From Gluconobacter sp. Gdi (GTDB lineage: Bacteria; Pseudomonadota; Alphaproteobacteria; Acetobacterales; Acetobacteraceae), in contig NZ_BLJQ01000015.1 of NCBI RefSeq assembly GCF_014132155.1, positions 1-35,459 on the forward strand: 35,459 bases of DNA, given 5' to 3'. The notes below the pieces were generated by a model. The model had not been told where the DNA came from. It did not search any database and saw nothing but the letters and a program-made list of their open reading frames with translations. Both the position numbers and the translations under genes were made by a program. Positions 9,833 through 28,152 of this stretch are shown here, piece by piece. Positions within the stretch are counted from its first letter, which is position 1. Each line of letters begins with the position of its first letter.

Positions 9833-9853
9833 GGTCTTTGCCCTTTGTTCCGC

Positions 9854-11794: not shown

Positions 11795-13519
11795 ATGACC
11801 CGCGTCGCCCTGTATGCCCGCTACTCGTCCGACAACCAGCGCGACGCCTCGATCGAGGACCAGTTCCGCATCTGCCGGGAACACGCGAAGCGGGAAAAAT
11901 GGAAGATCATTAACGCCTACAAGGACGCGGGTATCTCTGGCGCCAGCATGATCCTGCGTCCCGGTATCCAGACCCTGTTGCAGGATGCCCAGGCCGGGCG
12001 CTTCGACATCGTTCTGGCCGAGGCGCTGGACCGCATCTCGCGGGATCAGGCCGACGTCGCCACCCTGTTCAAGCACCTGAAATTCGCCGGCGTGCCGATC
12101 GTTACCCTGGCCGAGGGCGAAATCAGCGAACTGCATGTCGGTCTCAAGGGCACGATGAATGCCCTGTTCCTGAAAGACCTTGCGGCCAAGACCCATCGTG
12201 GCCTGCGCGGCCGGGTTGAGGACGGCAAATCCGGCGGCGGTCTCTGCTACGGCTATCGCGTCGTCCGGCAGTTCGACGCAAAGGGCGAACAGATCCGGGG
12301 CGATCGCGAGGTCGACGCGCATCAGGCGGAGATTATCCGCCGCATCTTCCGGGACTTCGCCGCCGGCATCGGCCCACGCGCCATTGCCAAAGCCCTGAAC
12401 GATCAGGGCATCGCCGGTCCCGAGGGCAAGCTGTGGAGCGACACCACCATCCGGGGCCATGTGAAGCGCGGCACCGGCATCATCAACAACGAGCTGTATA
12501 TCGGACGCCTGGTCTGGAACCGGCAGCGCTATGTCAAAGACCCATCCACCGGCAAGCGCGTCTCGCGCCTTAATCCGGAATCCGAGTGGGTGGTAACAGG
12601 GGTTCCCGATCTGCGGATCGTCGATGACGCGCTCTGGCAGGCGACCAAGGCCCGCCAGAGCGTCATCGCCGAGAAGTACGTCAACGTCACCGAGGCCGTT
12701 CGCGCCCACCACAAGCGGAACCGGCTCAACGGCACCCGCCGCCCGAAATCCCTTCTGTCGGGCCTGCTGTTCTGCGGCCTGTGTGCTGGCCCTTACACGC
12801 TGCGGGGTTCCGACCGCTTCGCCTGCTCAGGCCATGTCACCAATGGTTCCTGCGCCAACAGCCGGACGATCCCCCGTCCCGATCTGGAGCGCCGCGTGCT
12901 CTCCGGTCTCAAGGACCGGATGATGGCGCCGGAGATCGCGGCCGAAGCGATGCGCGCCTATGCCGAGGAGACCAATCGCCTCAATCGCGAGCGCCGCTCC
13001 AACGCCGATGTCTGGCAGGTGGAACAGGTGAAGGTCGAGAAGCATATCCGGGGCATCATCGAGGCCATCAAGGAGGGCATGTTCCATCCCAGCATGAAGG
13101 CGGAGATGGACACGCTCGAAGCCCGCAAGGCTGAGCTGGCGACCCTGCTCTCCGACGTTCCCAACGATGTGCCTGACCTGCTGCCGAGTGCGTCAGCGAT
13201 CTATGCGCGCAAGGTCGGACGCCTGACCGACGCCCTCAACCACCCTGAGGAACGGCTGGAAGCTGCCGAGGCACTGCGGGCGCTGATCGAGAAGGTTGTG
13301 CTGACACCCGGCCCGAACCGGGGCGAGATCGACGCGATGCTGTATGGGGAACTGGGCACGATCCTGAGCTGGATCGAGCGGCAAGCCATTGGAAAGGCTG
13401 AAAAAAGAAACACTCCCGGAGTTGGGCTCACGGGAGTGTCGGTATCAGTGGTTGCGGGGGCATGCAACCAATGTAGCCTGCGTCTTGTGAGCGGGTTCGT
13501 TGAACGTATCGCAGCATAG
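11795..13519 (+). CDS. Large serine recombinase (candidate integrase of module A)
   Basis: This 574-residue protein has an N-terminal resolvase domain with the nucleophile in YARYSSDNQ (Ser11) and the arginine motif EALDRISRDQADVA. A recombinase domain (KSGGGLCYGYRVV, then HVKRGTGIINNELYIGRLVWNR) follows, then a zinc ribbon (CGLCAGPYTL, CSGHVTNGSC) and a coiled-coil-rich C-terminus. Such enzymes integrate or excise elements at short att sites. It starts 14 bp after higA with an AGGAAAC ribosome-binding site. The last 30 or so residues encode an odd VVAGACNQCS tail because the DNA there resembles a tRNA 3' end. That tail suggests the gene ends in its own attachment site or has been fused to new DNA. 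Confidence 0.88.
   Translation: MTRVALYARYSSDNQRDASIEDQFRICREHAKREKWKIINAYKDAGISGASMILRPGIQTLLQDAQAGRFDIVLAEALDRISRDQADVATLFKHLKFAGVPIVTLAEGEISELHVGLKGTMNALFLKDLAAKTHRGLRGRVEDGKSGGGLCYGYRVVRQFDAKGEQIRGDREVDAHQAEIIRRIFRDFAAGIGPRAIAKALNDQGIAGPEGKLWSDTTIRGHVKRGTGIINNELYIGRLVWNRQRYVKDPSTGKRVSRLNPESEWVVTGVPDLRIVDDALWQATKARQSVIAEKYVNVTEAVRAHHKRNRLNGTRRPKSLLSGLLFCGLCAGPYTLRGSDRFACSGHVTNGSCANSRTIPRPDLERRVLSGLKDRMMAPEIAAEAMRAYAEETNRLNRERRSNADVWQVEQVKVEKHIRGIIEAIKEGMFHPSMKAEMDTLEARKAELATLLSDVPNDVPDLLPSASAIYARKVGRLTDALNHPEERLEAAEALRALIEKVVLTPGPNRGEIDAMLYGELGTILSWIERQAIGKAEKRNTPGVGLTGVSVSVVAGACNQCSLRLVSGFVERIAA
13411..13438. repeat. Hairpin near the recombinase 3' end
   Basis: CACTCCCG and CGGGAGTG pair perfectly over 8 bp with a 12-base spacer. 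It lies within the last 40 codons of the recombinase, just before the tRNA-like sequence. It may be part of a recombination site or an mRNA hairpin. Confidence 0.4.
13449..13470. other. Candidate att site resembling a tRNA-fMet 3' end
   Basis: TGGTTGCGGGGGC at 13449-13461 equals, in antisense, the last 13 bases (with CCA) of many bacterial initiator tRNAs. The match stops abruptly and the next bases, GCAACCA, form an inverted repeat with TGGTTGC. No tRNA body is present. A short tRNA-end match at the tail of a recombinase gene is typical of an attachment site after integration. No second copy was seen in the window. Confidence 0.4.
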
Positions 13520-14070: not shown

Positions 14071-14844
14071 CTAGAAGGCTGTCCTGACCAAGCCACCGTC
14101 AATGCGATAACCTGCTCCTGTGATGGCGGCAGCCCTATCGGAGACTAGGAACGCTATTAAGTCTGCAACCTCACGTGGCTGCACAAAACGGTCAATCAAA
14201 CTAGTCGGCCTATATCTCCTTATGAATTCCCGCTCCATCTCGTTTTCGCTCATGGTTTCCCCCTTGAAGACCGATTTTACAAAATCGCTGACCCCTTGGG
14301 TCCACGTTGGACCTGGCAACACACTATTCACCGTCACTCCAGTACCAGCCGCCACTTGGGCATAACCCCGTGCACTTGCGACCTGCGCAGCCTTTACGGC
14401 ACCGTAATGGATCATTTCTGTAGGAATTTGCAAGGCCGACTCACTACTTACAAATACAACTCTACCATCTCCACGTTCTATCATCTGCGGCAGATAGTGC
14501 TTAGTAAGGCGAACTGCACTCAAAAGATCTACTTGAAACATTTCAAGCCAGTCACTATCGGTGAGATCGAGCGCCGATTTTGATTTGAACATTCCAGCGT
14601 TGTTGATGAGCACATCAACGCGCGGGACGGAAGCAGAGACCAGGGGAACACTGTCTTGACTTCCAACATCGGCAACGCAGCTCGATATTTCCCCGTAGGC
14701 TTCTAAAGCCAGGACTGCTGCCTGAAGTTTAACAGGATCGCGCCCATTGACCACGACGTGAAACCCATCGAGTAAAAGTGCTCTAGCAGTTTCAAATCCA
14801 ATACCTTGCGAACCGCCAGTTATTAATGCGATTTTTTTGCTCAT
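14071..14844 (-). CDS. Short-chain dehydrogenase/reductase
   Basis: The 257-residue NAD(P)-dependent oxidoreductase has all classical SDR motifs. These are TGGSQGIG near the N-terminus for cofactor binding, NNAG after it, and a catalytic Ser in VSSESALQ with Tyr and Lys in YGAVK. The C-terminal GYRIDGGLVRTAF is the usual SDR ending. The start chosen (MSKKIALITGG) has GGGAG eight bases upstream. Asn in VVVNGRDP after the second strand fits NADP(H) use. It is last in a minus-strand block after the beta-propeller gene (38-bp gap), so it probably reduces or oxidises a carbonyl of the same small molecule. The substrate is unknown. Confidence 0.9.
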   Translation of the reverse strand: MSKKIALITGGSQGIGFETARALLLDGFHVVVNGRDPVKLQAAVLALEAYGEISSCVADVGSQDSVPLVSASVPRVDVLINNAGMFKSKSALDLTDSDWLEMFQVDLLSAVRLTKHYLPQMIERGDGRVVFVSSESALQIPTEMIHYGAVKAAQVASARGYAQVAAGTGVTVNSVLPGPTWTQGVSDFVKSVFKGETMSENEMEREFIRRYRPTSLIDRFVQPREVADLIAFLVSDRAAAITGAGYRIDGGLVRTAF

Positions 14845-14882
14845 GCTCCCAACTCCCATTCCATTGATTTAGGGTGAAAATG

Positions 14883-16151
14883 CTACAGTCCTTCCTTCTG
14901 GAAGTAATGCATAACTATTTGCGAGTTATTCGCCTCAAAATAGTTTTTTACGGAATATCCGATGGTAGCGAAGTCTACTACACCAGCTCCCTCGCGAGGT
15001 ATCAGCTTGATTCTCGCGACAGACGCATCGGAAACTTTCCACTTTAAATACATACCTTTTACTGGATCAATGATCTTGTAGTAATAAACTCCCTGCCATG
15101 GTTCTGGCCCGCGGAGACCTACTAGAAACTCATCATCCCCGTCGTTATCAAAATCGGCTGCCACAACGCAGTGGCCTGGGCCTTCTCCCAACTCGTTCGG
15201 GTCACCGTAAACGTCAAGAATATCGCGGGACCACTGGGATCCCAGATTGCTACATCCTTGAGTCGCGTAATAAATACACACGGTATTTCCGTGGAATGGC
15301 TCCAATGACAGCACGATGTCGTGACCAGTACTTCCCAGATGCCCAATGGCCGCGTCGCCGCTGCCTTTGAATCCCGTTCGCTCGAGTTGGCTGCCTTCGC
15401 CACTTCCGACCGTTTGCCACGCCCATTTTTCTTCGTTGATGTCGTAGAAAAAAATGCGTACGCCTTCGTCAGAACAAATCAATAAGGCATCGGCGCTTCC
15501 CGTCGGGTTACCGCCGCGAATAAGTTCCACACCGTGAACGAAACGGAAATCACCATTATTTATAATTTTACTAGGCCATTTCTCGCGAGAATTTCCATCG
15601 CTCGGAGAGCTGAACAAGACTATGGGCAATACGGCATGTGTACCATTGAGCCCTACTATCGGAAACCCAATGATCTCCATATGACCAGATGTAGTAAAAT
15701 TTCCAACACGGAATCGGTGCAGCGCCGGAATTTGTCCGATTAGATGATGCTGCCACGGCACATCAGGGGACGGACCCGGTTCAAGCCATGCGAGTTTCCC
15801 GCCGTCGCCAGAAGGATCTCGGAACGTACCAGTGCACCCGTACAAATCATAGCAAATTATTGGATTCAGCCGCCCAGTTCCGTCCAATGGCGCGAGATCC
15901 ATGGCCACAGGCATCGTGAGCGAGTTGGTCAAAAGTTTTCTTCGCCAGCCGCCGACAAAAGGAGCTCCAAACCACGTATCGCGAGAGTATAGAAATATCT
16001 CACCCATGGTCGGACCATAACCGATGATTTCGTTACGGCCTTTGGCCGAAATACCGCCCCAGTCAACCCAATATCCGTCCCGAAGAAACTCGTCGACCAC
16101 CTCCTGCTCGAATTTTGGCGCGACTATGGTGGCTGATATATTCTCTTTCAT
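14883..16151 (-). CDS. Aldos-2-ulose dehydratase-like beta-propeller protein
   Basis: The 422-residue soluble protein has no signal peptide and an FG-GAP/VCBS-like propeller pattern. From memory it resembles the N-terminal propeller of fungal aldos-2-ulose dehydratase (AUDH), which removes water from 1,5-anhydro-D-fructose or glucosone. Shared blocks are DGYWVDWGG, then IIGYGP, PVAMDLAPLD, GGKLAWLEP, IPALHRFRVGNF, EPFHGNTVCIYY, DFDNDGDDEFLVG and FATIGYSVKNYFE. His145 in ALHRF sits where I recall AUDH's catalytic His, and Asp333-Asp340 look metal-binding. The fungal enzyme is about 900 residues with C-terminal cupin domains; this one ends after the propeller. It is co-directional with the GST-like and SDR genes. 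A binding-only propeller is the alternative. Confidence 0.6.
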   Translation of the reverse strand: MKENISATIVAPKFEQEVVDEFLRDGYWVDWGGISAKGRNEIIGYGPTMGEIFLYSRDTWFGAPFVGGWRRKLLTNSLTMPVAMDLAPLDGTGRLNPIICYDLYGCTGTFRDPSGDGGKLAWLEPGPSPDVPWQHHLIGQIPALHRFRVGNFTTSGHMEIIGFPIVGLNGTHAVLPIVLFSSPSDGNSREKWPSKIINNGDFRFVHGVELIRGGNPTGSADALLICSDEGVRIFFYDINEEKWAWQTVGSGEGSQLERTGFKGSGDAAIGHLGSTGHDIVLSLEPFHGNTVCIYYATQGCSNLGSQWSRDILDVYGDPNELGEGPGHCVVAADFDNDGDDEFLVGLRGPEPWQGVYYYKIIDPVKGMYLKWKVSDASVARIKLIPREGAGVVDFATIGYSVKNYFEANNSQIVMHYFQKEGL

Positions 16152-16207
16152 TGATTATTTTCCTTCGCTCTACACTCGGTTTCCCATTTTTTGACTTCGT
16201 TATAGGA

Positions 16208-16831
16208 TCACGAGGGACAGTAAGTTGCCTGTATGACAGAAGGCCGTTCGAGGTTTAGTCTCATTCGGGCGCGCCATGTAGGATATCTCTCCATCGAGAT
16301 CGCTAATCCTGTGCCCCAATTAAAATAGGGTATGAGGTAAGCATCAATAATTGTTAATTGATCAGTCCACCAATCGAAACTCGCAACAAATCGCTCGATT
16401 TCCAGGAACTGATCAGGTAGTAGTCTGATCGCATATTTACTGATTTCCTTCCTGATATTCTCGTCAAATGCTAAGTGCTCGGGTCTGAATATGGCGCCGA
16501 TTGTTCTATGCACACTGGTGCTGAGCCATGACAGAAATTCTACTGTTCGTAACTCCACTTCTCCCTTAGGAGGAAATATATCGTGGCGTTTTTTTGCTAA
16601 CGACCGAATAAAGAGAACAATTGCTCCGAGTTCCGTGAGTATAAAATCATCTCTAGTAATTACGGGAACCAACCCTTTGGGATTGATGCCTAGAAAATCT
16701 GGGGTACGGTAATTTCGAAAAGAGTCGGCTGTTCTATCGACGTAAACAACTTCAAAGGGCACTCCTAATTCGGACAATAATACATGAACCGTAGCCGAAA
16801 TTGTATTTGGGTCTGTATATAGAGTTAACAT
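16208..16831 (-). CDS. Glutathione S-transferase family protein
   Basis: The 207-residue cytoplasmic protein has an N-terminal thioredoxin-like domain: MLTLYTDPNTISATVHVLLSELGVPFEVVYVD, then the cis-Pro region GLVPVITRDDFILTELGAIV, in which TELGAI replaces the usual TES.AI glutathione-binding motif. An all-helical C-terminal domain contains TIIDAYLIPYFNW, the conserved N-capping Asp box. A GGAGAG ribosome-binding site precedes the ATG. It is first in a block with the propeller and SDR genes (gaps 56 and 38 bp). It may conjugate or isomerise a reactive unsaturated intermediate, or protect the cell from it. The changed glutathione motif makes binding less certain. Confidence 0.85.
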   Translation of the reverse strand: MLTLYTDPNTISATVHVLLSELGVPFEVVYVDRTADSFRNYRTPDFLGINPKGLVPVITRDDFILTELGAIVLFIRSLAKKRHDIFPPKGEVELRTVEFLSWLSTSVHRTIGAIFRPEHLAFDENIRKEISKYAIRLLPDQFLEIERFVASFDWWTDQLTIIDAYLIPYFNWGTGLAISMERYPTWRARMRLNLERPSVIQATYCPS

Positions 16832-18090
16832 GGAAAACTCTCCTTTTACATTCCGGACTAAACCCGAAGAAAATGATGCGACAAAATCCGACCATGCTCA
16901 GCCGCAACCTGATTTTTTTCCATAATATTGAATTTCGGTAGGGGCATTTGCTGCTTCGGCGTGGATCAACGCTACAAATGTTGCTCTCTGTCACTCTAAA
17001 TTCGGTGTCTGGGGTCTGACGCGATATCACTGTAATTTACGAGCGCTCGATGATTTGCTTTCCGTAATCGTTCCTCATTTTATTAGTAAAGCGAATTATA
17101 TTATAATAGAATAGCAAGGTCCGTGAGCATGAATACGCGAAAATTGATCCAATATTACTTAATAACCCAGCGCGCCACTTGAGGGCATGGCCTAACCTGC
17201 TTCGACCTATGTTTTTTTTCGATGGTAGAATAGCTTCAACGCACTGGCACCCATGCATGATTACGACCTCGTTACATCTCGCCAACTTTATGAAATTCAT
17301 AGTGTACGACCATAGACGCCGAGAACCGAGACAACGGGCGGGGAACTTCATCTCAGCCGCCCCAAACACTGGTGCTAGCCACCAACTAACTCCGCATGGT
17401 GTCACGCCCCCTTGTTTGTTGATGATGCGCGAGGGCCTCGCCTGTCATGCCGCAAGTCAGGCCGACCAGTGTGACATGTCCGATTTCTTTCATGGACGCA
17501 GGCAACTGGTTGACATCCGCCAGACCGAGAAGCTGTGTTGCCACAGGGTAGGCCATATTAACATTGCTCTCGCGCAAGCTGTCAGCGATCGTCCAGCGTA
17601 TCAAAGTTTGATTACCGAGGACAACGCGATCGCGGGCGCAGGACTGGCAGCCCCGGTGGGCACGACAGACAAGATGCCGAGAACCATCTTCATGGTCGTC
17701 ATACGACAGTCCCTTGTCTAGACAATGCGATGATCCAGAAAGGGCAGCCTCCGCGGATTACTTCATCAAAATAGTGGCCCGCCTTGCGAGCGAAGGCGTT
17801 GAAAGTTTGCCAACTCTTGCGGGATGCATGGCTGTGCCGAATGGGCTGGCGCAAGGAACATCAATTTCACCTTGCACCATCAGCAATAAAAGGGAAGTCG
17901 CTTTTTTTGTGCTATGGCGTCACCGACATGCACAGTCATGCATCTCAAAACTTTTGAGCCGGTATTACCAACAGCTCACCTTATAAGTTTTTGATTTTAA
18001 AAACATACAATATAATCTACTTACTATAGACGAGATATTTTTAATAGATAATAATTTTACGCAGTAATAATCGTTAATATCTCAATCTTG
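16832..18090. other. Gene-poor, decayed stretch
   Basis: About 1.26 kb with no convincing intact gene. Short open frames in it lack ribosome-binding sites, known motifs and consistent codon use. A small SDR-like fragment is listed separately at 16938-17030. A frame on the minus strand around 17386-17700 reads like ordinary protein but I cannot place it. The last 90 bp are strongly AT-rich. It looks like relics of earlier genes between two cargo blocks. Confidence 0.5.
16938..17030 (+). pseudogene. Possible SDR fragment
   Basis: The frame reads VGAFAAS, then ALCHSKFGVWGLTR, which resembles the active-site helix of short-chain dehydrogenases (Y..SKFGVWGLTR) with the catalytic Tyr replaced by Cys or His. 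No cofactor-binding half is present. It is on the opposite strand to the intact SDR at 14071-14844. The evidence is a single short block, so chance similarity is possible. Confidence 0.25.
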
Positions 18091-19038
18091 TTATTCCGAA
18101 ACATCAATGTGGAATTTTGGTATTACATACTGGGATAATTCGTATATAACCTCGTCAGGTGGACGCTGACTAGGCCGGAGCAATATAGCAACATGTGATA
18201 ATTTCACTTCATTCATAATTTTTAAATAATCCATTAATGTATTTCGCCCCATGCGTCCACCGAATCGAAATGGCTGCAGCGGGCAATCAGGATCTCTATC
18301 TAGATCCAAGTGAAGTGCCGTTATTACCCCACGAGTACTTCGACCAATAAGTTGACGTTCGTGCTCCCAGTCTGAAACTTTTTTTGCCAAGTGCTCAATA
18401 GGCCCAGGATATACGAACCATGCGTCAGCATGGCGCGCAATCCAAGATGTACTTTGCTGGGCTCCCCCTATCACTACCCTCGGAATTAACGGCTGGATAG
18501 ACCGAGGTAAAATAACGGCGCCCTGTTCCATTGACTCCATGTCGCCTGAACGCCACAATTTTTCAAGCGCGACGAATGACCGACGATATATCGCCCCGCG
18601 TTCATCGTAATTGACGGCATAGAGAGGATATTCGAGTTTTCGATCTCCGGAAGCAAGGCCCAAAACGATCCTCCCTCCTGACAAAACGTCTGCGGACGCC
18701 GCTGCTTTCGCCACATCAATCGCACTTCGCAATGGTAGCACCACCCCGGCAGTCCCAATTACAATTCGCGAGGTGATCGCGGAGAGGTAGCCGTAGTTAA
18801 CGAAGGGATCAAAGATGCTTCCCGCGTCTCCGAAATGAATAGGATCAAACACCGGAACATCTCTCTGCCACACGGCTGCAAAATTTCCTTCTTCGGCCAA
18901 TTTCACGAGATACCCTTGTCGGCTTATATCAGCGACACCTCGAGCCTCCGTAGGGGAACTCCTGGCCCAGTCATTGTCGATCGGAAGCTCGATGCCGATA
19001 GTAAGGCAGTTCCTGCAAAGTTTATCTAACGCATTCAT
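18091..19038 (-). CDS. LLM-class (luciferase-like) flavin oxidoreductase
   Basis: The 315-residue enzyme of the bacterial-luciferase superfamily probably uses reduced FMN and oxygen to oxidise a small substrate. Typical blocks are IGIELP at the start, DPIHFGDAGSIFDPFVNYGYLSAIT, then IVIGTAGVVLPLRSAIDVAKAAASADVLSGGRIVLGLASG, and VVIGGAQQSTSWIARHADAWFVYPG. It resembles the subfamily I recall as TIGR03571 (BA3436-like). An AGGA ribosome-binding site precedes the ATG. It follows the MFS gene by 75 bp and is probably co-transcribed. No flavin reductase gene is seen, so reduced flavin would come from the host. The substrate is unknown. Confidence 0.85.
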   Translation of the reverse strand: MNALDKLCRNCLTIGIELPIDNDWARSSPTEARGVADISRQGYLVKLAEEGNFAAVWQRDVPVFDPIHFGDAGSIFDPFVNYGYLSAITSRIVIGTAGVVLPLRSAIDVAKAAASADVLSGGRIVLGLASGDRKLEYPLYAVNYDERGAIYRRSFVALEKLWRSGDMESMEQGAVILPRSIQPLIPRVVIGGAQQSTSWIARHADAWFVYPGPIEHLAKKVSDWEHERQLIGRSTRGVITALHLDLDRDPDCPLQPFRFGGRMGRNTLMDYLKIMNEVKLSHVAILLRPSQRPPDEVIYELSQYVIPKFHIDVSE

Positions 19039-19113
19039 ATTGGTAATCCTGGAAAAGTGGGCCTAACGACAGAGAGAAAAAACCGTGCCGACCGCGTATT
19101 CTTCGACCGCACC

Positions 19114-20304
19114 TCATTGAGCGGCATAGCCATCACGAAATTTTTTTTTCTTATCTAAGGCGTAACTCAAGACCGCCAAAACAAAGGCACACACGACAAC
19201 CGCAGCAGCGGCAACGGGTGTCGTTCCCACGCCACCACCAGAACTGACGATCTTCGCCCCAACGAACGAACTGAAAGCGATGCCAAAATTCGCCGCCGAT
19301 ATGTTGAGCGCTGAAGCTACATCTACTCCATTTGGCCGAAAGGTCTTCGCGAGATCGACAATATATAAATGCAGTCCAGGCACATTTGCGAATGAAAAAA
19401 CTCCGACAAATGCGATATTTAATAGCAACAAATATGGATGCAGATCGGTTATATACAGGAGCGACAATAAAACCCCTTGAATTAGAAATAATGGAATTAA
19501 GATTTTTATCGGCGTGCGGTTGGAAAGATATCCTCCGACCATGTTCCCTATGATTACCGACACCCCGTACAATGACAATATCGGCCCCACAGTCCACGTA
19601 GGCATGTGCGCAACCTCAGTGATAATTTCCGAGAGAAACGTAATAGCAACGAATGTACCTCCATACCCAAAGAAATTCATAGCGAACCCAACAAGCAGCC
19701 TACCGCTACTGAGAACGGATAACTGCTCATGAATGCTCACATCTTCATCTGTGCGAACACCACCGGGAAGCCATCTTGCCATGCAGGCAACCGAAACCGC
19801 GCCGAGGAGCGTTACAAGCACAAACGTAGCTCTCCAGCCGGCACGTTGCGCAATGATTGTTCCTAACGGGACGCCTAGTGCTATGGCTATAGTAAGCCCC
19901 GAGAAAACCGTTGCTATGGCAGAGGCACGTTTGTTTGGTGGAACTAAATTTGCAGCGAACGTTGCCGCTGTGGCAAAAAAGACACCGTGCGCTGCTGAGG
20001 TTGCAATACGAATAACCAATAACGCCTCGAAGTTGCCCACCAGTGGTGCGAGCGCGTTCCCTGCGGTGAATAACGTCATCAAGCCCAACATCAGCTTCCG
20101 GCGATCCACTTTCTGACAAAAAGCGGTTAACACTGGGGCACTAATCCCAACGCCAAATGCGTATAAACTCACCAGAAGCGATGCAAGTGAGAGAGATACC
20201 TGGAGGGATTGTGAAATGACCGGTATCACTCCCACCAATACGAATTCACTGGTTCCGATCGCGAACGACGCCAGTGCCATTGCCAATAGTGCAAACTTCA
20301 TCAT
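19114..20304 (-). CDS. MFS drug:H+ antiporter-type exporter (DHA1)
   Basis: The 396-residue inner-membrane protein has about twelve hydrophobic segments. It matches the AraJ/YdhP-like DHA1 group: SFAIGTSEFVLVGVIPVIS in helix 1, DRRKLMLG in the loop 2-3 motif A region, and GLTIAIALGVPLGTIIAQRAGWRATF, motif C, which marks antiporters. The start chosen (MMKFALLAMALA) has GGAGAA nine bases upstream; the longer frame would add ten basic residues. It would pump out a product or toxic compound using the proton gradient. It heads a block with the LLM gene and is divergent from lysR, the likely regulator. Export of the cargo's metabolite is an inference. Confidence 0.92.
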   Translation of the reverse strand: MMKFALLAMALASFAIGTSEFVLVGVIPVISQSLQVSLSLASLLVSLYAFGVGISAPVLTAFCQKVDRRKLMLGLMTLFTAGNALAPLVGNFEALLVIRIATSAAHGVFFATAATFAANLVPPNKRASAIATVFSGLTIAIALGVPLGTIIAQRAGWRATFVLVTLLGAVSVACMARWLPGGVRTDEDVSIHEQLSVLSSGRLLVGFAMNFFGYGGTFVAITFLSEIITEVAHMPTWTVGPILSLYGVSVIIGNMVGGYLSNRTPIKILIPLFLIQGVLLSLLYITDLHPYLLLLNIAFVGVFSFANVPGLHLYIVDLAKTFRPNGVDVASALNISAANFGIAFSSFVGAKIVSSGGGVGTTPVAAAAVVVCAFVLAVLSYALDKKKKFRDGYAAQ

Positions 20305-20493
20305 TCTTCTCCGAGAGTATCTAAGAGACCGCAAAGGCAGTACTGGCTACTTCGACCTTTTGAAGGTATTAATGGACGTACTGGTTCGTCCTTTGCGATA
20401 GGTTGCGTATGTCATGCTACATCGACTGAGTTCCGTTGACTCGTGCCGCGTCGGCATAATTAAAGTGAATTGAGAGCAACACCGGAGTAATCC
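20305..20493. promoter_or_regulatory. Divergent MFS/lysR intergenic region
   Basis: This 189-bp spacer holds both promoters and probably the LysR-binding site. A possible -35 for lysR, TTGACT, lies at 20436-20441, but the matching -10 (AT-rich CATAATTAA near 20455) is spaced too closely to be confident. I could not pick out a clear T-N11-A palindrome. Confidence 0.35.
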
Positions 20494-21417
20494 ATGACTC
20501 AAGATATCGCGGAAATGCGTGTTTTCGTTGCAATAGTTGAAAATCTCAGTTTGTCCGAGGCTGCTAGGAAGCTTGGGCTTACGCCCTCTGCTGTCAGCAA
20601 GTCATTATCCAGGCTTGAGGCAAGACTAGGAGCTACTCTAGTCCATACATCTCCGAGAAAAATTTGGATAACAGAAATCGGGGCTTATTATTATGAGGAG
20701 TCCAAGAATATTCTAGATGACCTATGCGAACTCGACAAGAAAATACGAGGATATTCTTCTAGTTCTCCCGGGCAGACGATTAAGATCACGTCGAGCATAC
20801 CTTTTGGACGTCTTTTACTATCACCGCTGCTCGCAGAATTTTGCAGAATTCATCAGCACGTTAATCTTGATATTTATCTAGATGACACTGTCGTAGATCT
20901 CGTAGAGGCTCAAGTCGATTTGGCAGTACGGGTGGGACCACTCCGCGATTCCACGTTAATTGCTCAACGGCTGCTAGATAGCCCTTACATTGTTGTCGCT
21001 TCGCCCGATTACTTACATAGGGAGGGATTCCCCGAGAAACCGACCGATCTTAATAACCATGATTGCATCGCTTATAATTTCAAAAGAAAAACGATGAGTT
21101 GGCCATTTCAAGTCGAGAAAAAAATATATCGCTTCATACCGACATCGCCTCGTCTTCGTGTGAACAATGGTGATTCTGCTCGGCAATTTGCATTGATGGG
21201 CGTAGGGATTACGCGGCTAGCCCGTTTTCACGTTGATGATGAAATAAGAGAAGGAAAACTTGTCGAATTGCTTTCCGAATTCAGAACAGAAATGGCTGAA
21301 CAGGTAAATGTAGTGTATCACGGAAAACATAGACACAATCGTAACATTAAGTTATTAATAACATTCCTGAAGAATTCTCTTAATGAATCATCGCGGCACA
21401 AACAAAACACTCTCTAA
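20494..21417 (+). CDS. LysR-family transcriptional regulator
   Basis: This 307-residue regulator has an N-terminal winged helix-turn-helix (MRVFVAIVENLSLSEAARKLGLTPSAVSKSLSRLEARLG) and a C-terminal periplasmic-binding-like effector domain, with ITSSIPFGRLLLSPLLAEF and VDLAVRVGPLRDSTLIAQRL as in the CrgA/AaeR-like branch. The ATG follows GGAGTAATCC. It is transcribed away from the MFS-LLM block and most likely controls it in response to the transported compound or a precursor. Base composition matches the low-GC cargo. The effector cannot be predicted. Confidence 0.92.
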   Translation: MTQDIAEMRVFVAIVENLSLSEAARKLGLTPSAVSKSLSRLEARLGATLVHTSPRKIWITEIGAYYYEESKNILDDLCELDKKIRGYSSSSPGQTIKITSSIPFGRLLLSPLLAEFCRIHQHVNLDIYLDDTVVDLVEAQVDLAVRVGPLRDSTLIAQRLLDSPYIVVASPDYLHREGFPEKPTDLNNHDCIAYNFKRKTMSWPFQVEKKIYRFIPTSPRLRVNNGDSARQFALMGVGITRLARFHVDDEIREGKLVELLSEFRTEMAEQVNVVYHGKHRHNRNIKLLITFLKNSLNESSRHKQNTL

Positions 21418-21484
21418 ATTATGAAATAATTCAAAACAATACTGAACTTCCTCTACCTCTATCCTTATCTCTTGCGACGTAATA

Positions 21485-21625
21485 TCAGGTCTCGGAGCCT
21501 TTTTGGGGAAGCCACGGATGAACGTTTCTGCTGAGCATGAGGCTTCCCATGGCGATGTGGATCATGGCCTCTGCGACATCAATCCGCTATTCGTCGTCCT
21601 TCACGAGGAGAGGCCGGCGGACCCA
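21485..21625 (-). pseudogene. IS5-family transposase C-terminal fragment
   Basis: Read on the minus strand the frame gives WVRRPLLVKDDE, a stop (TAG), then RIDVAEAMIHIAMGSLML and a final stop. This matches the closing RIDV.EAMI..AMG..LLRR of IS5-family (IS427-like) transposases. The internal stop and missing body show it is dead. It abuts the IS256 relic on the other strand, so this is a site of repeated insertion. Confidence 0.6.
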
Positions 21626-22262
21626 CGACTTCGACAACAGGATCATCTCGATGTAAGCACACGGGATGAACGCGGGCGAGATCCACGGCCATCTACTTGC
21701 AATCTATGGCCTGGAAGCGTCGCCGGGCCCAATCAGCGTCATCACCGACGCCGTGCTGGAGATGTGACGGGACGGCAGAACCAGTCGCTGGAGACAGTCT
21801 ACCCAGTCGTGTTCTTCGATGCATTCCGGGTGAAGACCCGAGACGAGAGCGTGGTGCGCAACAAGGCGGTGCCCATTGCACTGGGCGTACCCGTCGACGG
21901 TACCAAGCAAGTCATCGACCTGTGGATCGAGCAGAACGAACGCGACAAATTCTGACTCCGTGTCATGAAAGAACTACACCATCGCGACCATGAGGATATC
22001 TTCGTCCTCATCGACGGGCTAAAAGGCTTCCTCGATGCCATCCGTACCGCCTTCTCCGAAACCCTAGAGCAGATCCCGTTCAGATGGAATCATCTGAACG
22101 GGTGAAGATGCTCGCAAAAACAAACAACCGGAACGTTTTTCGCGAACCGTTTTGAGCGGAAAACGCTCTAGTGCAGACTGTATCGTTCATCTGCTGCGCC
22201 ATTCGCTGGATTTCATCGCCTCGAAAGACCGGAAGTCTGCGCCTATGGCATTGAAGGACATT
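21626..22262 (+). pseudogene. IS256-family (Mutator) transposase relic
   Basis: Pieces of an IS256-type transposase can be joined across frame breaks: FDNRIISM stop AHGMNAGEIHGHLL, then GLEASPGPISVITDAVLE, then YPVVFFDAFRVKTRDESVVRNKAVPIALGVPVDGTKQVIDLWIEQNE, then DGLKGF, and after the MITE an LRHSLDFIASKDRK piece. The DDE-type Asp in FFDA and the later VDGLKGF-like box (here IDGLKGF) are recognisable. Premature stops, frameshifts and a MITE insertion at 22065-22170 inactivate it. Confidence 0.8.
22065..22170. mobile_element. 106-bp MITE inserted at TA
   Basis: The element is bounded by TA on both sides, with ends GAGCAGATCCCGTT and, inverted, GAGCGTTTTCCGCT, giving CTAGAGC and GCTCTAG at the junctions. 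An internal hairpin (GTTCAGATG and CATCTGAAC) lies near the left end. Removing it with one TA restores GAA ACC CTA GTG CAG ACT, the ETLVQT of IS256 transposases, so the insertion point is exact. A TA target and GAGC-type ends suggest mobilisation by an IS630-family transposase. It has no coding capacity. Confidence 0.8.
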
Positions 22263-22284
22263 CTATATCCACAAAATCTGTTTG

Positions 22285-22323
22285 GACCGGACATGATTTT
22301 AGTAATTGCGACCATGTCCGGTC
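22285..22323. terminator. Perfect 11-bp hairpin behind the ABM gene
   Basis: GACCGGACATG and CATGTCCGGTC pair perfectly around a 17-base loop, starting 21 bp after the ABM monooxygenase stop on the minus strand. No clear T-run follows, so a factor-dependent terminator, an mRNA-stabilising hairpin or the end of a small repeat are all possible. Confidence 0.4.
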
Positions 22324-22344
22324 TCGCATACGAAGATTTTATGC

Positions 22345-22662
22345 TTACGTATTATAAATATTCATACTGATATCAGGCTGAAAATATTCCACTCTCATCT
22401 CTTCAGCAAGGACTTCGTCTTTCGATGCCCTAAACGCCAGAAAATGAGGCGATTTTGTATGTCGGTCGAGGTCCGCTTGAGTCGCCCAATGTTCATAAAA
22501 CATCCATGTAGCGGGGTTATCTGTGGAACGGTGCAGATCATATGTGATGCACCCGTCCTCAGCAAGAGTTGGTTTGATACCCGAACGAAGACGCTTCCCC
22601 AGCTCTTCCTCTTGTCCAGGCTTCGCGGTAAGTTGTGCTACCACCGTTACTATTCTCGTCAT
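22345..22662 (-). CDS. Antibiotic biosynthesis monooxygenase (ABM/YgiN-like)
   Basis: The 105-residue protein has the ABM ferredoxin-like fold, usually a dimer: VTVVAQLTAKPGQEEELGKRL, then CITYDLHRSTDNPATWMFYEHWATQADLDRHTKSPHFLAF. It is closest to the YgiN quinol monooxygenase group. These enzymes oxidise quinols or aromatic polyketides without metal or flavin. A purine-rich AAGAAGGACAA precedes the ATG. It stands alone, with an IS relic on one side and an empty 600-bp stretch before the cupin gene. It may tailor the same metabolite as the LLM enzyme or detoxify a quinone. Confidence 0.85.
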   Translation of the reverse strand: MTRIVTVVAQLTAKPGQEEELGKRLRSGIKPTLAEDGCITYDLHRSTDNPATWMFYEHWATQADLDRHTKSPHFLAFRASKDEVLAEEMRVEYFQPDISMNIYNT

Positions 22663-23263
22663 TTATGTTGTCCTTCTTGGAAAGAACTTCCAGGAACTAT
22701 TGTTCTGGAAGATGTTGGGTTGTCCCTGGTGAGCACCTCTCATAGAACACCATCTATTCATGGAGAGAACGTGATTTCTTAATAATTTCCATAATGTGGA
22801 AAAAGACGGGAGCAGCGATAAAAACTCTCTGAATGGCACAAATACGTTGGTTTCTTGATACTACACGAAATACCAAAGCCACTTTCCGGTTACGATTTTC
22901 GTCTTAATCCCTTTAAACTATAAAAATCATGTAGGGAGATGTACTAAACTACTGAATTTAACGGCACAAGGATCAGAAAAACTAACGACTAAATTTGGAG
23001 AATATCTCTTACATTTGCATCTCATTGACAATTGCCAAAAAACTAGGTTTCAGTCGGGAAATATAGCACGGAAAGTGATCAATTTATTTTTTTATACATA
23101 TTTTATTGAGGGGGCCATATGATATAAACCGCCATTAATTCGGCATTTGTAATGAGATAATCTTGGTTTAAATAATATTATACGCATAATTTCGCAAAAT
23201 CAGGTATGTTGTTTCCGTAACGAGTCTAGTTATCAGATAATAATTCGCAACAAATTATTTTTT
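22663..23263. other. AT-rich stretch without a recognised gene
   Basis: About 600 bp, markedly AT-rich. I found no open frame with a ribosome-binding site or motif, no RNA gene and no clear repeat. It contains the promoter of the ABM gene (right next to 22663) and the 3' untranslated region of the cupin gene. Confidence 0.4.
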
Positions 23264-23968
23264 TTAAATCAGAAAGTATTCCAGTGCCATCCAAACACAA
23301 TCTGTTTCAGCAAAATACTGATGAAAAGGGTATGAAAACTCTCCTTCGGCGATCTCTGAGCAGAATGGTTCAGAAGTTGTTGTGCCTGGTGCCAGTATAT
23401 CTTGCTCGATAATTGAATTATATTTCTGGGAACGAAATTTTTGCATAATTCCGACTCCGTATAATTGAGTGTGTATTTCTAAGAAATCATGTTTGTCGTG
23501 AATTCCACAATGGCTTCCGGCAGACGCGAACCAAAAATTTGCATAAACAGTAAATAGGCGCGGACCAAGGTTTCCCTTTTGAGGCATTGTTATTATATCG
23601 AGATCAATTGGAATCGTTCCGATTTTTATTCGCGGCGACTTCCAAAGCTCGCCATAACCGTTTGTGGCGGGATCAAGTTTAAATTCTTTCCATCCTAACT
23701 GCTTAACGCAGCTCATTTTTTTTGGGATCACATCTAAATCTACTAATAACAAGTTGTTTCCTGTTAATCGGCTCCCGCGTTGGTAGTGGCGGGAAGAGAA
23801 TGGCCTAAGCGCACTTGGAGGAGACCCTTCTGCGTAAGCCGTCTCTTCGCCTATATTAACGACAATCATTTGGTGATTCATGAGGAGTTCTTGCGCGCGC
23901 GCAGCGAATGACAACTTGATACCGTGGTCAGCAGAGATCTCTAACTGGTCATTTACCGTTCGAGACAT
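23264..23968 (-). CDS. Cupin-like protein, possible AUDH isomerase-domain homologue
   Basis: I do not recognise the 234-residue protein as a named family. Its C-terminal half carries a cupin-like metal set: His157, His160, Glu164 and His166 in GIHDKHDFLEIHTQLYG, and His216 in YPFHQYFAETDCVWMALEYF. From memory these blocks match the order in the cupin domain of fungal aldos-2-ulose dehydratase (an H.H..EIH block, then a VP/AP turn, then YPWH before a closing aromatic strand), which isomerises the dehydrated sugar to a pyrone. The N-terminal half (residues 1-110) has no motif I can place. It follows the wecB-like gene by 48 bp, so they are probably co-transcribed. The AUDH link needs a structural comparison. 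Confidence 0.5.
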   Translation of the reverse strand: MSRTVNDQLEISADHGIKLSFAARAQELLMNHQMIVVNIGEETAYAEGSPPSALRPFSSRHYQRGSRLTGNNLLLVDLDVIPKKMSCVKQLGWKEFKLDPATNGYGELWKSPRIKIGTIPIDLDIITMPQKGNLGPRLFTVYANFWFASAGSHCGIHDKHDFLEIHTQLYGVGIMQKFRSQKYNSIIEQDILAPGTTTSEPFCSEIAEGEFSYPFHQYFAETDCVWMALEYFLI

Positions 23969-24016
23969 TGTATATTCCCTTCATATTTGTCGAGAGATAT
24001 TGCTAAATGTTGGGCT

Positions 24017-25165
24017 CTATATAATGCTCCATTGATACGCGATATGGTCCGCTGGCAGTTTCCCAAAATATTTTGCAATCGCAGCAACACACCGTGCCGA
24101 GGCGTTGCCGTCCCCATAGGGCTGTCCCAGATGAACGCGATCTCCTTGATTGTGTATCTCTACCAGCGCATCAGTGGCATTGTTCAAAATACTTTTCAGA
24201 TCACGGCCAGTTAATTTCGCTACCCCCGTTGAGACGGCTTCAGGACGTTCGGTTACTGTCCTCAGGACCAGAGTTCGTATTCCAAGGGTAGGTCCCTCTT
24301 CTTCAGCGCCGCTACTATCCGAGATAATAAGGGAAGAATTATTGAGAAGATCTACGTATTCTGGATAGGAAAGCGGTTCAATGAGGAACACGTTTTCTAA
24401 TCCTGAAAGCGCCGGAACAAAAGCCTCGCGAACGATGGGGTTTTTGTGGAGAGGAACAACTAAACTGACGTCGTTTAGCCTTGCAATTTCCCGTAGCGCG
24501 CTGGCGACTTCTGCCAAGTCATGCCAACCCTCGCGTCGGTGTGCGGAGGCTATTATTATTGGCTTTTGACGCGATACTATAAATTCGATTTGTTCCGAGC
24601 GCGGTGTTCTATTATTACTGATAAAATTCTGTAGTGCATCAACTACCGTATTTCCTGTCACAAATATAGCATCGCTGTGAATGCCCTCTCTTAGCAAGTT
24701 TGCTCTGGCGCCCTCCGTGGGAGCTAAATGTAGATTAGCTATTTGCCCGACTAATTTACGATTAGCCTCCTCGGGAAATGGAGATCCTGCATGGTGACTG
24801 CGAAGTCCAGCTTCGACATGGATCAGTGGTATCCTATTTTGAAATGCGTATATGGCGCCAGCAAGCGTGGATGCTGTGTCACCGTGAACTATAACTGCGT
24901 CAAGTTCTCCAGGTACTACAGTCGCGTCGAGACCTTCGAGAGCTCTCTGAGTAACCTGGGTGAGACTCTGTCCTGCTCGCATTATTCCGAGATTAATTTG
25001 GGGAATTATACCGAACGCCTCAAACGTCTCATCCGCCATCTCACGATGCTGCCCCGTCGCTATAATTCGAGGACAGAAATTTTTGTCTTCCTGCAGCGCC
25101 GCGTAAAGCGGTGCGCATTTTACGATTTCAGGCCGTGTTCCGATAATGAAAGCTATGTTGATCAT
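24017..25165 (-). CDS. wecB: UDP-GlcNAc 2-epimerase (WecB-like, non-hydrolysing)
   Basis: The 382-residue GT-B-fold enzyme has the family's key boxes: GTRPEIVK at the start, HGDTAST, HVEAGLRS, FPEEANRK, GNTVVDAL and SAHRREGW. They hold the Asp, two Glu and His of the active site. WecB enzymes interconvert UDP-GlcNAc and UDP-ManNAc by eliminating UDP to a 2-acetamidoglucal and adding it back. The usual SDSGG.QEEAP and RDTTERPEA boxes are changed to SDSSGAEEEGP and RTVTERPEA, so nucleotide handling may differ. A GGAGAG ribosome-binding site precedes the ATG. It heads a block with the cupin gene and is divergent from iclR. No surface-polysaccharide genes are nearby, which makes a classical role in cell-surface sugars less likely. 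Confidence 0.88.
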   Translation of the reverse strand: MINIAFIIGTRPEIVKCAPLYAALQEDKNFCPRIIATGQHREMADETFEAFGIIPQINLGIMRAGQSLTQVTQRALEGLDATVVPGELDAVIVHGDTASTLAGAIYAFQNRIPLIHVEAGLRSHHAGSPFPEEANRKLVGQIANLHLAPTEGARANLLREGIHSDAIFVTGNTVVDALQNFISNNRTPRSEQIEFIVSRQKPIIIASAHRREGWHDLAEVASALREIARLNDVSLVVPLHKNPIVREAFVPALSGLENVFLIEPLSYPEYVDLLNNSSLIISDSSGAEEEGPTLGIRTLVLRTVTERPEAVSTGVAKLTGRDLKSILNNATDALVEIHNQGDRVHLGQPYGDGNASARCVAAIAKYFGKLPADHIAYQWSII

Positions 25166-25340: not shown

Positions 25341-26093
25341 ATGGCGATTATCCAATCGGTGAGTCGAGCTCTCGCAATCCTTGAATCACTCGCGACCCAA
25401 GATCAGGGCTTCAAACTCAGTGAACTTGCTGGCGCTCTGGAACTCGAAGTATCAACTTGTCATAATCTGCTAAAAACCTTAGTGACTCGCGGATATGTCA
25501 TTCGAGATGGCGTTACACGGAATTATAAAATTGCAGGCAAGTTTGGCCAGCCTACTTCTTTAGGCATTCACGATCTTAATCTCCTAGAGGACATCGCATG
25601 TATAGCTCGGGATTACTCTCGAACACCGGGTTTTAACACATATATAGCCCTCCCGGAGCTACACTTAGTGCGCTATGCGAATTCCTTTGTCGACGGCCAT
25701 AACGATCCGCGTAACACTGCGTTCTATAGTGAAAGTATAGGCATACATTCTGCGTCAGCCATATTATTTTTGGCTCACATACGGGTTATGAGATGTCATG
25801 CAGATCTACGAGGTCTTTTGTCGACACCGGCTGTGCAAGCACGCTTGGCTTCAGCTGAGGCGAAGGGTTACGCGTTGGATTTGGGATACTCCGTCGCAGA
25901 TGTCCACGGGGTCGCATCACCCGTATGGCAGCACGGAGAAGTTGTCGCAGCTGTAGGTTTATACGGGTCTCGCCGTCTGTTAGACAGGAAGAAGCTAGAA
26001 CAACATGGTTGGATTCTAATGCGGAGACTGCAAGAAATTGTGGGGAATAATATAAGATTACCGTCACGTCGGGACGGCGAGGTCGGTGATTAG
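25341..26093 (+). CDS. IclR-family transcriptional regulator
   Basis: This 250-residue regulator has an N-terminal winged helix-turn-helix (IIQSVSRALAILESLA, then FKLSELAGALELEVSTCHNLLKTLVTRGYV) and a C-terminal effector domain with the IclR ending GVASPVWQHGEVVAAVGLYG. The start is the ATG at 25341, behind a modest TGAGG. It is divergent from wecB across 175 bp, so the wecB-cupin block is the probable target. IclR proteins usually sense sugars or aromatic acids, which fits the proposed sugar chemistry, but the effector is not predictable. The 240 bp after its stop, up to the relaxase gene, show nothing I can name. Confidence 0.9.
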   Translation: MAIIQSVSRALAILESLATQDQGFKLSELAGALELEVSTCHNLLKTLVTRGYVIRDGVTRNYKIAGKFGQPTSLGIHDLNLLEDIACIARDYSRTPGFNTYIALPELHLVRYANSFVDGHNDPRNTAFYSESIGIHSASAILFLAHIRVMRCHADLRGLLSTPAVQARLASAEAKGYALDLGYSVADVHGVASPVWQHGEVVAAVGLYGSRRLLDRKKLEQHGWILMRRLQEIVGNNIRLPSRRDGEVGD

Positions 26094-26333: not shown

Positions 26334-28070
26334 TTACATCCCGATCGCTATTATTCGCTTTTTTGAAAATTCCCACGCGATTGCCCCACTTCCCCGCGTT
26401 GTTCCGGAGACCGCCTTTCCGATTTGCTTGTCAATCGCTGGCGTCCATGGAACTAACTGAAACCCCAGTCCGTTGTCGATCATCGCGTATCGTCCCGACG
26501 CTAGAGTGATGCGCTGACGATAAACACCAGCCACGTTGTCACCCGGCGCAACGGGATCGAACGGCCTTCCTTCCTGCCGCGCGAGTTTCTCCCCGGCAGC
26601 CCTCAGCTCGCGCTCTCGAAGCGTGGACAGCAAACCCCGCTCGAACCTGACACGTTCCCCGTCCCGCTGCGCGAGCCCTTCCCGCACGAGATGATCCGCA
26701 CGTCGACGCATCGCGTCCCGCACCTCCGCCCCGAAGCCGCCACCCAGTTCTGGCGGTTCGTTGGCCAAGGCCTGTCTGTCCAGCCATGTGGCCCCCTGCG
26801 CCTCTACCTGCTGCTCCAGCGTGAAGTCCGACCGCACCGCCAGCGCGATCCGACTTCGCCCTTTCGCGTCCTCGAACCGGCGCAGTTCGAGGATCGCTCC
26901 CATCGGTGCGTCGGTGGTCGCTTCCAGGCTGGGAAGATGCACATGATGGGTTCGTCCGTCGATCCCGTCTACTACCGCAAAGGCCGTGCCCTTCAACTCG
27001 TCATCAAGCCCGCGCCCGACCAGTCTGCCGAGGACAGGATGCTCCGCTTCGTCGCTCGCCAGCACCCACGACGCTTGCGGTCGTTCCACACCCTGTTCGG
27101 CAAGGCCACGATGAATCCGTTTGATGATGTCGTTGCGTTGCCCCATTTCACGCAATGTCGCCTCGGCGTGCTCCTCCAGCGCCCAGCGGCCCAGTTCGAT
27201 CTGCCGCGCCAGCCCCAGTCCTTCCAGGCGCCGGAGACGGCCGACCTTGAGCACCTCGAACGTGTCGGGCCGCCGATCCGGTGAGGGGCGCATATCAATG
27301 AGTCCATGTTCACCCGCATCGCGCTGAAGCTGCCGATCGAGTTGCGTCCAGCGGTCGGCCTCGACCTGGCGCTCAACGGCGCGCCGAATCTCCACATCGT
27401 TGCGCAGACCGAGTTCGCGGGTCACGAGTTCCTGCGCACGACCCCGCATGCCTTCCCGGATGTAATCGCGCGCGATCACCAGGTCCTCGCCGTCTTGGGC
27501 CTTGCCCCGCACGATGACATGAATGTGGGGATGCTCAGTGTTCCAGTGATCGACGGCCACCCAGTCGAGCTTCGTGCCAAGATCGTGCTCAGCCTGCGTC
27601 ATCAGGTCGCGCGTGAAGCGCTTCAGATCCTGCATCTCCACGGCATCATCCGGGGAAACGATGAAGCGGAAATGATGACGATCATCGGCGCACCGCTCGG
27701 CGAAAGCTTTGGGATCGACCTCGTCCTGCTCGGGGCCGAACAGCTTCGCCTTCTCGCCATCCTGTGTCACACCCTCGCGCCGCAGATACCGGAGATGCGG
27801 AGTCAGTGGTGCTGCGCGCGGTCCATGCTTCACAACGCGCGCCTTGATCACCACCCCGCGTGAGCGACTGGTGAGGAAACGGTTGGCATGCGCGCTCGCC
27901 ACACGGCCGCGCCCGAAGGTCGAGCGACCACCACCGCCCTGCCTCCCTCGTCCCATGCCCCCCGCCCGCTGAGTGGCCGCCAGCGCCTGGGCAATGAAGG
28001 GCCGTGCCCGCTGGGTGCCGGGCGAGCGGATGCGACCCGGTCGAACCCGGAAATCGTCGTCTTTTGTCAT
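26334..28070 (-). CDS. rlxS: RlxS/VirD2-type relaxase with DUF3363 domain
   Basis: The 578-residue relaxase would nick oriT and pilot the strand into a recipient. The start is at MTKDDDFRVRPGRIR, the usual N-terminus. A basic Gly-rich segment (GGMGRGRQGGGGRSTFGRG) precedes HLRYLRREG, with the likely nicking Tyr, then DRHHFRFIVSPDDA and the histidine motif HPHIHVIVRG. The rest is the DUF3363 domain, with DGIDGRTHHVHLPSLEAT, then VYRQRITLASGRYAMIDNGLGFQLVPW and an end close to the family's. Length is normal, unlike the truncated copy at 92-1063. It is the last gene of the module B operon, separated from the transglycosylase by 247 bp that may hold oriT. Confidence 0.92.
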   Translation of the reverse strand: MTKDDDFRVRPGRIRSPGTQRARPFIAQALAATQRAGGMGRGRQGGGGRSTFGRGRVASAHANRFLTSRSRGVVIKARVVKHGPRAAPLTPHLRYLRREGVTQDGEKAKLFGPEQDEVDPKAFAERCADDRHHFRFIVSPDDAVEMQDLKRFTRDLMTQAEHDLGTKLDWVAVDHWNTEHPHIHVIVRGKAQDGEDLVIARDYIREGMRGRAQELVTRELGLRNDVEIRRAVERQVEADRWTQLDRQLQRDAGEHGLIDMRPSPDRRPDTFEVLKVGRLRRLEGLGLARQIELGRWALEEHAEATLREMGQRNDIIKRIHRGLAEQGVERPQASWVLASDEAEHPVLGRLVGRGLDDELKGTAFAVVDGIDGRTHHVHLPSLEATTDAPMGAILELRRFEDAKGRSRIALAVRSDFTLEQQVEAQGATWLDRQALANEPPELGGGFGAEVRDAMRRRADHLVREGLAQRDGERVRFERGLLSTLRERELRAAGEKLARQEGRPFDPVAPGDNVAGVYRQRITLASGRYAMIDNGLGFQLVPWTPAIDKQIGKAVSGTTRGSGAIAWEFSKKRIIAIGM

Positions 28071-28080
28071 GGAAATCCCC

Positions 28081-28152
28081 GCGAGGTGCGCAAAATGGCC
28101 GGAAACCGCCAGAAACGGGGAGAAGCAGGCTTCAGAGCGGCCCGCACCTCGC
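28081..28152. other. Candidate oriT region, module B
   Basis: GCGAGGTGCG (28081-28090) and CGCACCTCGC (28143-28152) form a perfect 10-bp inverted repeat around 52 bp, starting 11 bp upstream of the relaxase start. Placement matches oriT of related ICEs as I recall it. The repeat sequence differs from the module A hairpins, which would give each relaxase its own site. The nick position is not visible. The rest of the gap to 28317 contains C-rich runs and no gene. Confidence 0.4.

Follow-up and report, generated by a model that had tools for sequence, protein, structure and literature searches.

The window examined here is a stretch of 35,459 nucleotides (contig NZ_BLJQ01000015.1, positions 1 to 35,459) from the 3.55 Mb genome of Gluconobacter sp. 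Gdi. It carries a cargo of ten genes, all of them intact open frames, with a GC content of 0.43–0.50 as against 0.64 in the flanking recombinase and relaxase genes. Three cargo genes, all on the − strand, are the main subject of this analysis. The first (14883..16151) encodes a seven-bladed propeller of 422 amino acids (aa) of the aldos-2-ulose dehydratase (AUDH) type, a predicted zinc-dependent sugar dehydratase. The second (23264..23968) encodes an AUDH-type bicupin of 234 aa, a predicted isomerase. The third (24017..25165), which adjoins the cupin gene, encodes a 382 aa homologue of the UDP-N-acetylglucosamine (UDP-GlcNAc) 2-epimerase WecB, here called the SSG type and predicted to be a source of 2-acetamidoglucal. 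A first-pass annotation had described the propeller and cupin genes, in a low-GC cargo, as a split AUDH making and exporting a sugar-derived pyrone-like compound; the WecB gene lay within its coordinates and was omitted from its gene list. This omission turns out to be the more interesting point, since the epimerase-like gene of this mobile cluster probably feeds an amino sugar to the AUDH halves, suggesting a variant of the anhydrofructose pathway that runs on an amino sugar.

The propeller matched the Pfam family AUDH_beta_propeller above its cut-off (E 3.1e-37) and the AUDH structure PDB 4a7k over residues 11–412 of 422 (E 5.5e-51), and its predicted structure superposes on the chain range 14–436 of AUDH 4a7z. 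Histidines 145, 206, 287 and 327 are invariant across 79 aligned propellers and are candidate metal ligands; loci L058 and L072 were excluded from propeller and cupin residue counts for poor frame ends. The cupin is a more distant relative in sequence. Its sole Pfam match at E≤10 is AUDH_Cupin (E 0.016, 15.1 bits, under the cut-off of 25), and it has a strong structural match to AUDH, superposing on the chain range 401–734 of 4a7z. Among the 42 members of cupin set A2, 18 gave a sequence-level Pfam match at E≤0.01. A PDB profile search with the cupin alignment did not recover AUDH, and a single-sequence search returned no match, so that the kinship is visible only through structure and weak Pfam matches. 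The Pfam model PF18637 failed to recover the cupin from the window's own whole genome at E≤1 (0/1) and is too insensitive to be used for co-occurrence. Candidate zinc ligands are invariant in the cupin alignment as in that of the propeller, and metal- and catalytic-type residues are retained in all three core proteins. The division of AUDH into two genes proposed by the first-pass annotation is thus supported, because the predicted structures superpose on the propeller and cupin parts of AUDH and the homologues co-occur.

Co-occurrence was examined at propeller loci L002–L081, the best 80 of 105, where L002 is a near-identical Gluconobacter copy. A cupin was present in 66 of the 80. All 66 also carried one further gene, a WecB homologue in 58 and a GH31 family gene in 8, with no locus having both or neither; the 14 loci lacking a cupin had no WecB (0/14) and no GH31 (0/14). 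The order is WecB-cupin-propeller at 42 loci and cupin-WecB-propeller at 12, and many frames touch or overlap. Propeller and cupin genes are adjacent or overlapping in many relatives and 7.1 kb apart in the window. No cupin was found anywhere in the 14 propeller-only genomes (0/14), whereas the L057 genome, searched alongside, gave a match; in L017, one of the 14, the propeller lies 169 bases from the contig end.

The propeller-only loci have neighbours of their own. A xylose-isomerase-like TIM-barrel group occurs at L062, L065, L075, L076, L077 and L081 (by clustering; Pfam checked in L076), and a GatZ-like group at L073, L078, L079 and L080 (by clustering; Pfam checked in L080), three of these last loci also having a ThuA group (checked in L078 and L079). 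Such neighbourhoods suggest other sugar dehydratase roles. Pyranose oxidases make the other known class of AUDH substrate. A bacterial pyranose oxidase has been characterised from Oscillatoria princeps, the species of L064, according to part of PMC11650716.

The eight GH31 proteins all carry the motif WQDMTTP (8/8). In an alignment made with one of them, the red-algal alpha-1,4-glucan lyase has WQDMTVP and alpha-glucosidases have DMNE. Because the WQDMT motif resembles that of the red-algal lyase and not that of the glucosidases, these proteins are best read as putative glucan lyases making 1,5-anhydrofructose. Loci with a lyase-like GH31 gene next to the propeller and cupin genes come from cyanobacteria, Paenibacillus and a Marinilabiliaceae metagenome-assembled genome. 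The supplier gene therefore looks glycal-forming in both versions of the cluster, each of which looks like one enzyme able to make a glycal combined with the two AUDH halves.

The WecB homologue of the window matched TIGR00236 above its cut-off (E 2.1e-108) and PDB 1vgv (E 3.7e-87). The catalytic-type residues D96, E118, E133, H209, E289, E290 and R307 are retained in all 59 WecBs linked to AUDH genes (those of 58 loci, among them L002 with a sequence identical to the window's, plus the window itself). In non-hydrolysing UDP-GlcNAc 2-epimerases, UDP is eliminated to give 2-acetamidoglucal and is then added back. PMC8869731 describes 2-acetamidoglucal as both an intermediate and a leak of these enzymes, and an SGG sequence as highly conserved in the family and likely to hold the UDP phosphates. 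This UDP-phosphate loop reads SSG in 59/59 linked WecBs and SGG in 12/12 paralogues drawn from the same genome set (44 places were listed, 30 with loci, of which 18 were cluster copies and 12 served as paralogues). The linked WecBs form one side of a tree branch with a support of 100/100. As these loci had been selected via the propeller, a WecB-centred test was also made on 392 Streptomyces genomes, 58 of which matched and 30 of whose loci were read. Cupin and propeller stood beside all 15 SSG-type WecBs, and neither stood beside any of the 15 SGG-type ones; because of shared descent these loci represent fewer than 30 independent cases. The linked WecBs thus appear, from their sequences and neighbours, to be a distinct and specialised subfamily tied to AUDH genes. 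Within the same family, KasQ released 23.8% 2-acetamidoglucal at 12 h against 9.2% UDP-N-acetylmannosamine (UDP-ManNAc), and did not reconvert added 2-acetamidoglucal and UDP to a UDP-sugar, according to the same paper, PMC8869731.

The propellers also differ between the two versions of the cluster. Residue 203 is Arg in 57/57 WecB-linked propellers and His in 8/8 lyase-linked ones, and a short insertion near residues 103–108 is present in the WecB-linked class and missing from the lyase-linked class. The fungal AUDH propeller, aligned through PDB 4a7k, has His at position 203 and lacks the insertion.

We modestly favour the view that the cargo encodes a small-molecule pathway built round the split AUDH and fed with 2-acetamidoglucal by the SSG-type WecB. 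The basis for this view consists of homologies, folds, gene linkage and a WecB subfamily with its own signature. An N-acetylamino-sugar substrate would fit better than a neutral sugar, because no glucan lyase occurs among the scanned cargo genes, a specialised WecB is found instead, and the propeller has the Arg and the insertion. For AUDH itself, the structure paper is said to describe a propeller that dehydrates 1,5-anhydrofructose, yielding ascopyrone M, and a cupin that isomerises this compound to microthecin. The title of PDB 4a7z names ascopyrone M as a reaction intermediate. By analogy, the SSG-type WecB would eliminate UDP from UDP-GlcNAc and release 2-acetamidoglucal without adding UDP back; in chemical terms, this glycal would be an acetamido analogue of 1,5-anhydrofructose in its enol form. 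The propeller, judging from homology, would then remove water by means of zinc held on the conserved histidines, and the resulting compound would be isomerised by the bicupin, a reaction of the kind ascribed to the AUDH cupin. The predicted product is an acetamido-pyranone, C8H11NO4, with a computed [M+H]+ of 186.076. Further changes may be made by the SDR, LLM, ABM and GST-like proteins. A single two-electron oxidation would lead to C8H9NO4 ([M+H]+ 184.060), and an N-acetyl-amino analogue of kojic acid would have this formula. Export of the product would fall to the MFS protein, and control of the pathway to the LysR and IclR proteins.

Several observations weigh against this proposal. Strict co-occurrence fails when tested from the cupin side: the co-occurrence expected of a split AUDH stands in 66 of 80 propeller loci, but cupins also occur without a propeller. 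The cupin was matched in 5 of 398 Pseudomonadota genomes, the window's own included. Two of these cupins are full-length and have no propeller, WecB or lyase within 17–18 kb, their surroundings being sugar-catabolism-like; the same three genes were likewise not found near the one divergent cupin inspected, and the fifth match is marginal (E 3.5e-4). Four of 386 cyanobacterial genomes matched. All three genes, propeller, cupin and GH31, are present in that of L057, and the other three cupins (L174, L175 and L176) have a GH31 adjoining and no propeller within 16–19 kb, the GH31 being a 92-aa piece in L174 and the cupin an 88-aa piece in L176. The Pfam model PF22301 gave no match in the seven genomes with these other cupins, the marginal one included (0/7), a count that leaves absence unproven as no control matched. 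Arg203 and the insertion occur together in propellers lacking both cupin and WecB (L017, L032, L062, L063, L065 and L067), and Arg203 occurs without the insertion in L075, L076, L077 and L081; for this reason the two features are only a substrate hint and fall short of proving an amino-sugar substrate. The outgroup of the WecB tree consists of 12 rows only, some on long branches, and the window's WecB itself lies on a long branch (1.96). That SSG reduces the re-addition of UDP is a guess, and SSG could equally mark a different UDP-sugar. Finally, the compound to be dehydrated would be an enamide and not a ketone, which makes this chemistry hypothetical, and a prior oxidation may be needed.

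L168 and L169 hold AUDH-type cupins in alphaproteobacteria, the cupin of L169 lying close to genes for a thiamine-diphosphate enzyme and for a protein resembling histidinol dehydrogenase. In these loci the fold possibly serves in catabolism.

There is a different reading of the same genes, which we consider rather unlikely: WecB would make UDP-ManNAc or N-acetylmannosamine, and an oxidase or the SDR would turn an amino sugar into a keto sugar for propeller and cupin. The pathway would then still start from amino sugars, but no free glycal would be formed. The WecB catalytic-type residues are indeed all retained, SDR genes accompany the core, and a BBE-type flavin oxidase occurs in actinobacterial loci. 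Nevertheless, where one cluster version has a lyase and the other a WecB, the simplest reading is that one glycal supplier has taken the place of another, and SSG would be unexpected for ordinary epimerisation, as all 12 paralogues keep SGG.

Supply of the split AUDH with 2-acetamidoglucal must also be weighed against neutral glucose chemistry, in which host glucosone or 1,5-anhydrofructose would yield cortalcerone or microthecin while WecB is separate or unrelated. Both propeller and cupin are AUDH homologues, and acetic acid bacteria form the gamma-pyrones kojic acid, 3-oxykojic acid and 5-oxymaltol (review PMC9171043, in part). However, this explanation leaves aside a WecB gene that adjoins the cupin in the window and is present in 58 of 66 relatives, and whose SSG type, in the 30 loci tested, never stood without AUDH genes. 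Furthermore, residue 203 and the loop set the window propeller apart from the fungal one and from those linked to a lyase, and no GH31 was seen among the scanned cargo genes, the rest of the genome not having been searched for one. Of 14 Gluconobacter genomes scanned for PF22301, 1 matched (genome G424, outside those 14, also has it), so that a trait of the whole genus cannot be put down to the cluster. We regard neutral glucose chemistry as improbable here, and the microthecin- or cortalcerone-type product envisaged by the first-pass annotation is probably wrong, given a WecB in place of a lyase and the Arg and insertion of the propeller.

As an explanation of the classical gamma-pyrones of acetic acid bacteria, the cluster was dropped, since PF22301 occurs in 4 of 397 genomes of the family, only one of them Gluconobacter (the window's own). 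The same explanation is weakened by the WecB, found in only 2 of 26 Gluconobacter genomes, as the window's cluster copy and the G424 copy of the same stretch.

Least probable, and very doubtful in our opinion, is a decaying or repurposed island whose proteins fold although their pathway has ceased to operate in Gluconobacter: the rarity of WecB in the genus (2/26), its long branch in the window, the 7.1 kb between propeller and cupin, which are not adjacent or overlapping, and the IS12528- and IS256-like fragments between the LysR and ABM genes would all suit it, but all ten reading frames are intact and the three core proteins keep their catalytic- and metal-type residues.

The remaining cargo genes were all confirmed by profile matches, as the first-pass annotation had named them. 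A 262-aa SDR oxidoreductase (14071..14859, −; Pfam adh_short, E 9.2e-42), likely to act in a tailoring step, has homologues 46–49% identical at L004, L022, L043, L049 (7 kb away there), L050 and L074. The 207-aa GST-like protein (16208..16831, −; GST_N_2, E 1.7e-9) has homologues at 35–39% in L004, L022 and L074. The LLM-class flavin-dependent oxidoreductase of 315 aa (18091..19038, −) belongs to the TIGR03571 subfamily (E 2.6e-93, above the curated cut-off), with homologues in L004 (297 residues aligned) and L022 (142 residues only). Beside it lies a 406-aa MFS exporter (19114..20334, −; MFS_1, E 1.4e-42), DHA1-like by the names of its best matches; its best NCBIfam match, Cmx/CmrA, is under the cut-off, and homologues in L004 and L022 are 50–51% identical. 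A LysR-type regulator of 307 aa (20494..21417, +; Pfam match) has homologues at L003, L004, L015, L018, L022, L043, L049 and L050. The 105-aa ABM-family monooxygenase (22345..22662, −; PF03992, E 2.8e-25) is 61–68% identical to homologues in L004, L022 and L074. An IclR-family regulator of 250 aa (25341..26093, +; HTH_IclR, E 1.7e-13) is loosely linked, with homologues besides L002 in L022 and L024 only (27–29%).

Homologues of nine cargo genes (SDR, propeller, GST-like, LLM, MFS, LysR, ABM, cupin and WecB) are found together at L004 in Pseudomonas flavescens and at L022 in Phyllobacterium leguminum, and six of the nine have homologues at L074 in Xenorhabdus kozodoii. In actinobacterial clusters the same core is mostly joined by an SDR, an MFS protein, a BBE-type oxidase and an acyltransferase; these groups come from open-frame clustering, one representative each of the last two having been scanned. 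Such a gene set has the apparent anatomy of a small-molecule pathway with export.

The cargo lies between a large serine recombinase gene on the left (11795..13519, +; Resolvase, E 8.7e-26; Recombinase, E 1.5e-21) and, on the right, genes for a relaxase of the DUF3363/MobA-VirD2 type (26334..28199, −), a transglycosylase and a replication initiator. The cargo proteins have counterparts of 100% identity at L002, on a contig named Gluconobacter potus. Positions 13445–35459 match an equally long contig of genome G424, from the same genus, at 99.98–99.99%; identity with this copy (L117/L118) ends at 13445, inside the 3′ end of the recombinase gene, so that the left flanks differ between the two genomes. 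Insertion elements have probably hit the cargo, because IS12528- and IS256-like transposase gene fragments lie at 21490–21621 and 22165–22265, between the LysR and ABM genes. No close copy of the cargo was found in the plasmid collection, where matches were short fragments like insertion sequences only; the stretch 16850–18080 had zero matches there, and three records contain a distant propeller. Two DNA methyltransferase genes are located near the cargo (9152–9982 and 31071–31997, both −). A 451-aa open frame at 5022–6377 (−) has 29.6% GC in surroundings of mostly 57–65% and gave no match with Pfam or PADLOC.

More tentatively, and with slightly more doubt than conviction, we suggest that Actinomycetota and Pseudomonadota share an undescribed type of pathway, leading from a specialised epimerase homologue through 2-acetamidoglucal and a two-gene AUDH to an N-acetylamino-pyranone. 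Among the open-licence PMC papers listed by the searches, mostly seen as titles in listings, none dealt with a bacterial AUDH or with a pathway joining WecB and AUDH. Whole gene clusters look built to use 2-acetamidoglucal. If this is true, a class of small molecules has possibly been missed by tools for polyketide and peptide assembly lines, and a one-residue signature would locate the 2-acetamidoglucal pathway in genomes. The steps can be tested with three proteins and one substrate, whose synthesis is published (PMC8869731, in part). The proposal also offers a functional hypothesis for the cupin family, whose 103 listed members are hypothetical, uncharacterised or unnamed and without a Pfam domain, and for propellers often annotated as hypothetical, VCBS or FG-GAP repeat proteins.

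Fungal AUDH has a C-terminal lectin-type domain, for which the window chains of 422 and 234 aa leave no room. The Phanerochaete chrysosporium enzyme (PDB 4a7k, 4a7y and 4a7z) is a single chain of about 900 residues, whereas the window has two genes 7.1 kb apart; such splitting of AUDH is ordinary in bacteria. The window propeller further differs from the fungal one at the pocket-region residue 203 and in the loop, and, unlike fungal AUDH, the window genes have a WecB-like supplier gene adjacent. The anhydrofructose pathway of fungi and algae combines alpha-1,4-glucan lyase with AUDH. As in that pathway, the slot next to propeller and cupin appears to be filled by a glycal-forming enzyme; as opposed to it, the family of the window's supplier acts on UDP-GlcNAc and not on glycogen or starch, which suggests a nitrogen counterpart of the anhydrofructose pathway. 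With WecB/RffE and with KasQ of kasugamycin biosynthesis, the linked WecBs share their family, their catalytic-type residues and the known 2-acetamidoglucal intermediate; they differ in having SSG instead of SGG, in forming a separate clade and in being tied to AUDH genes.

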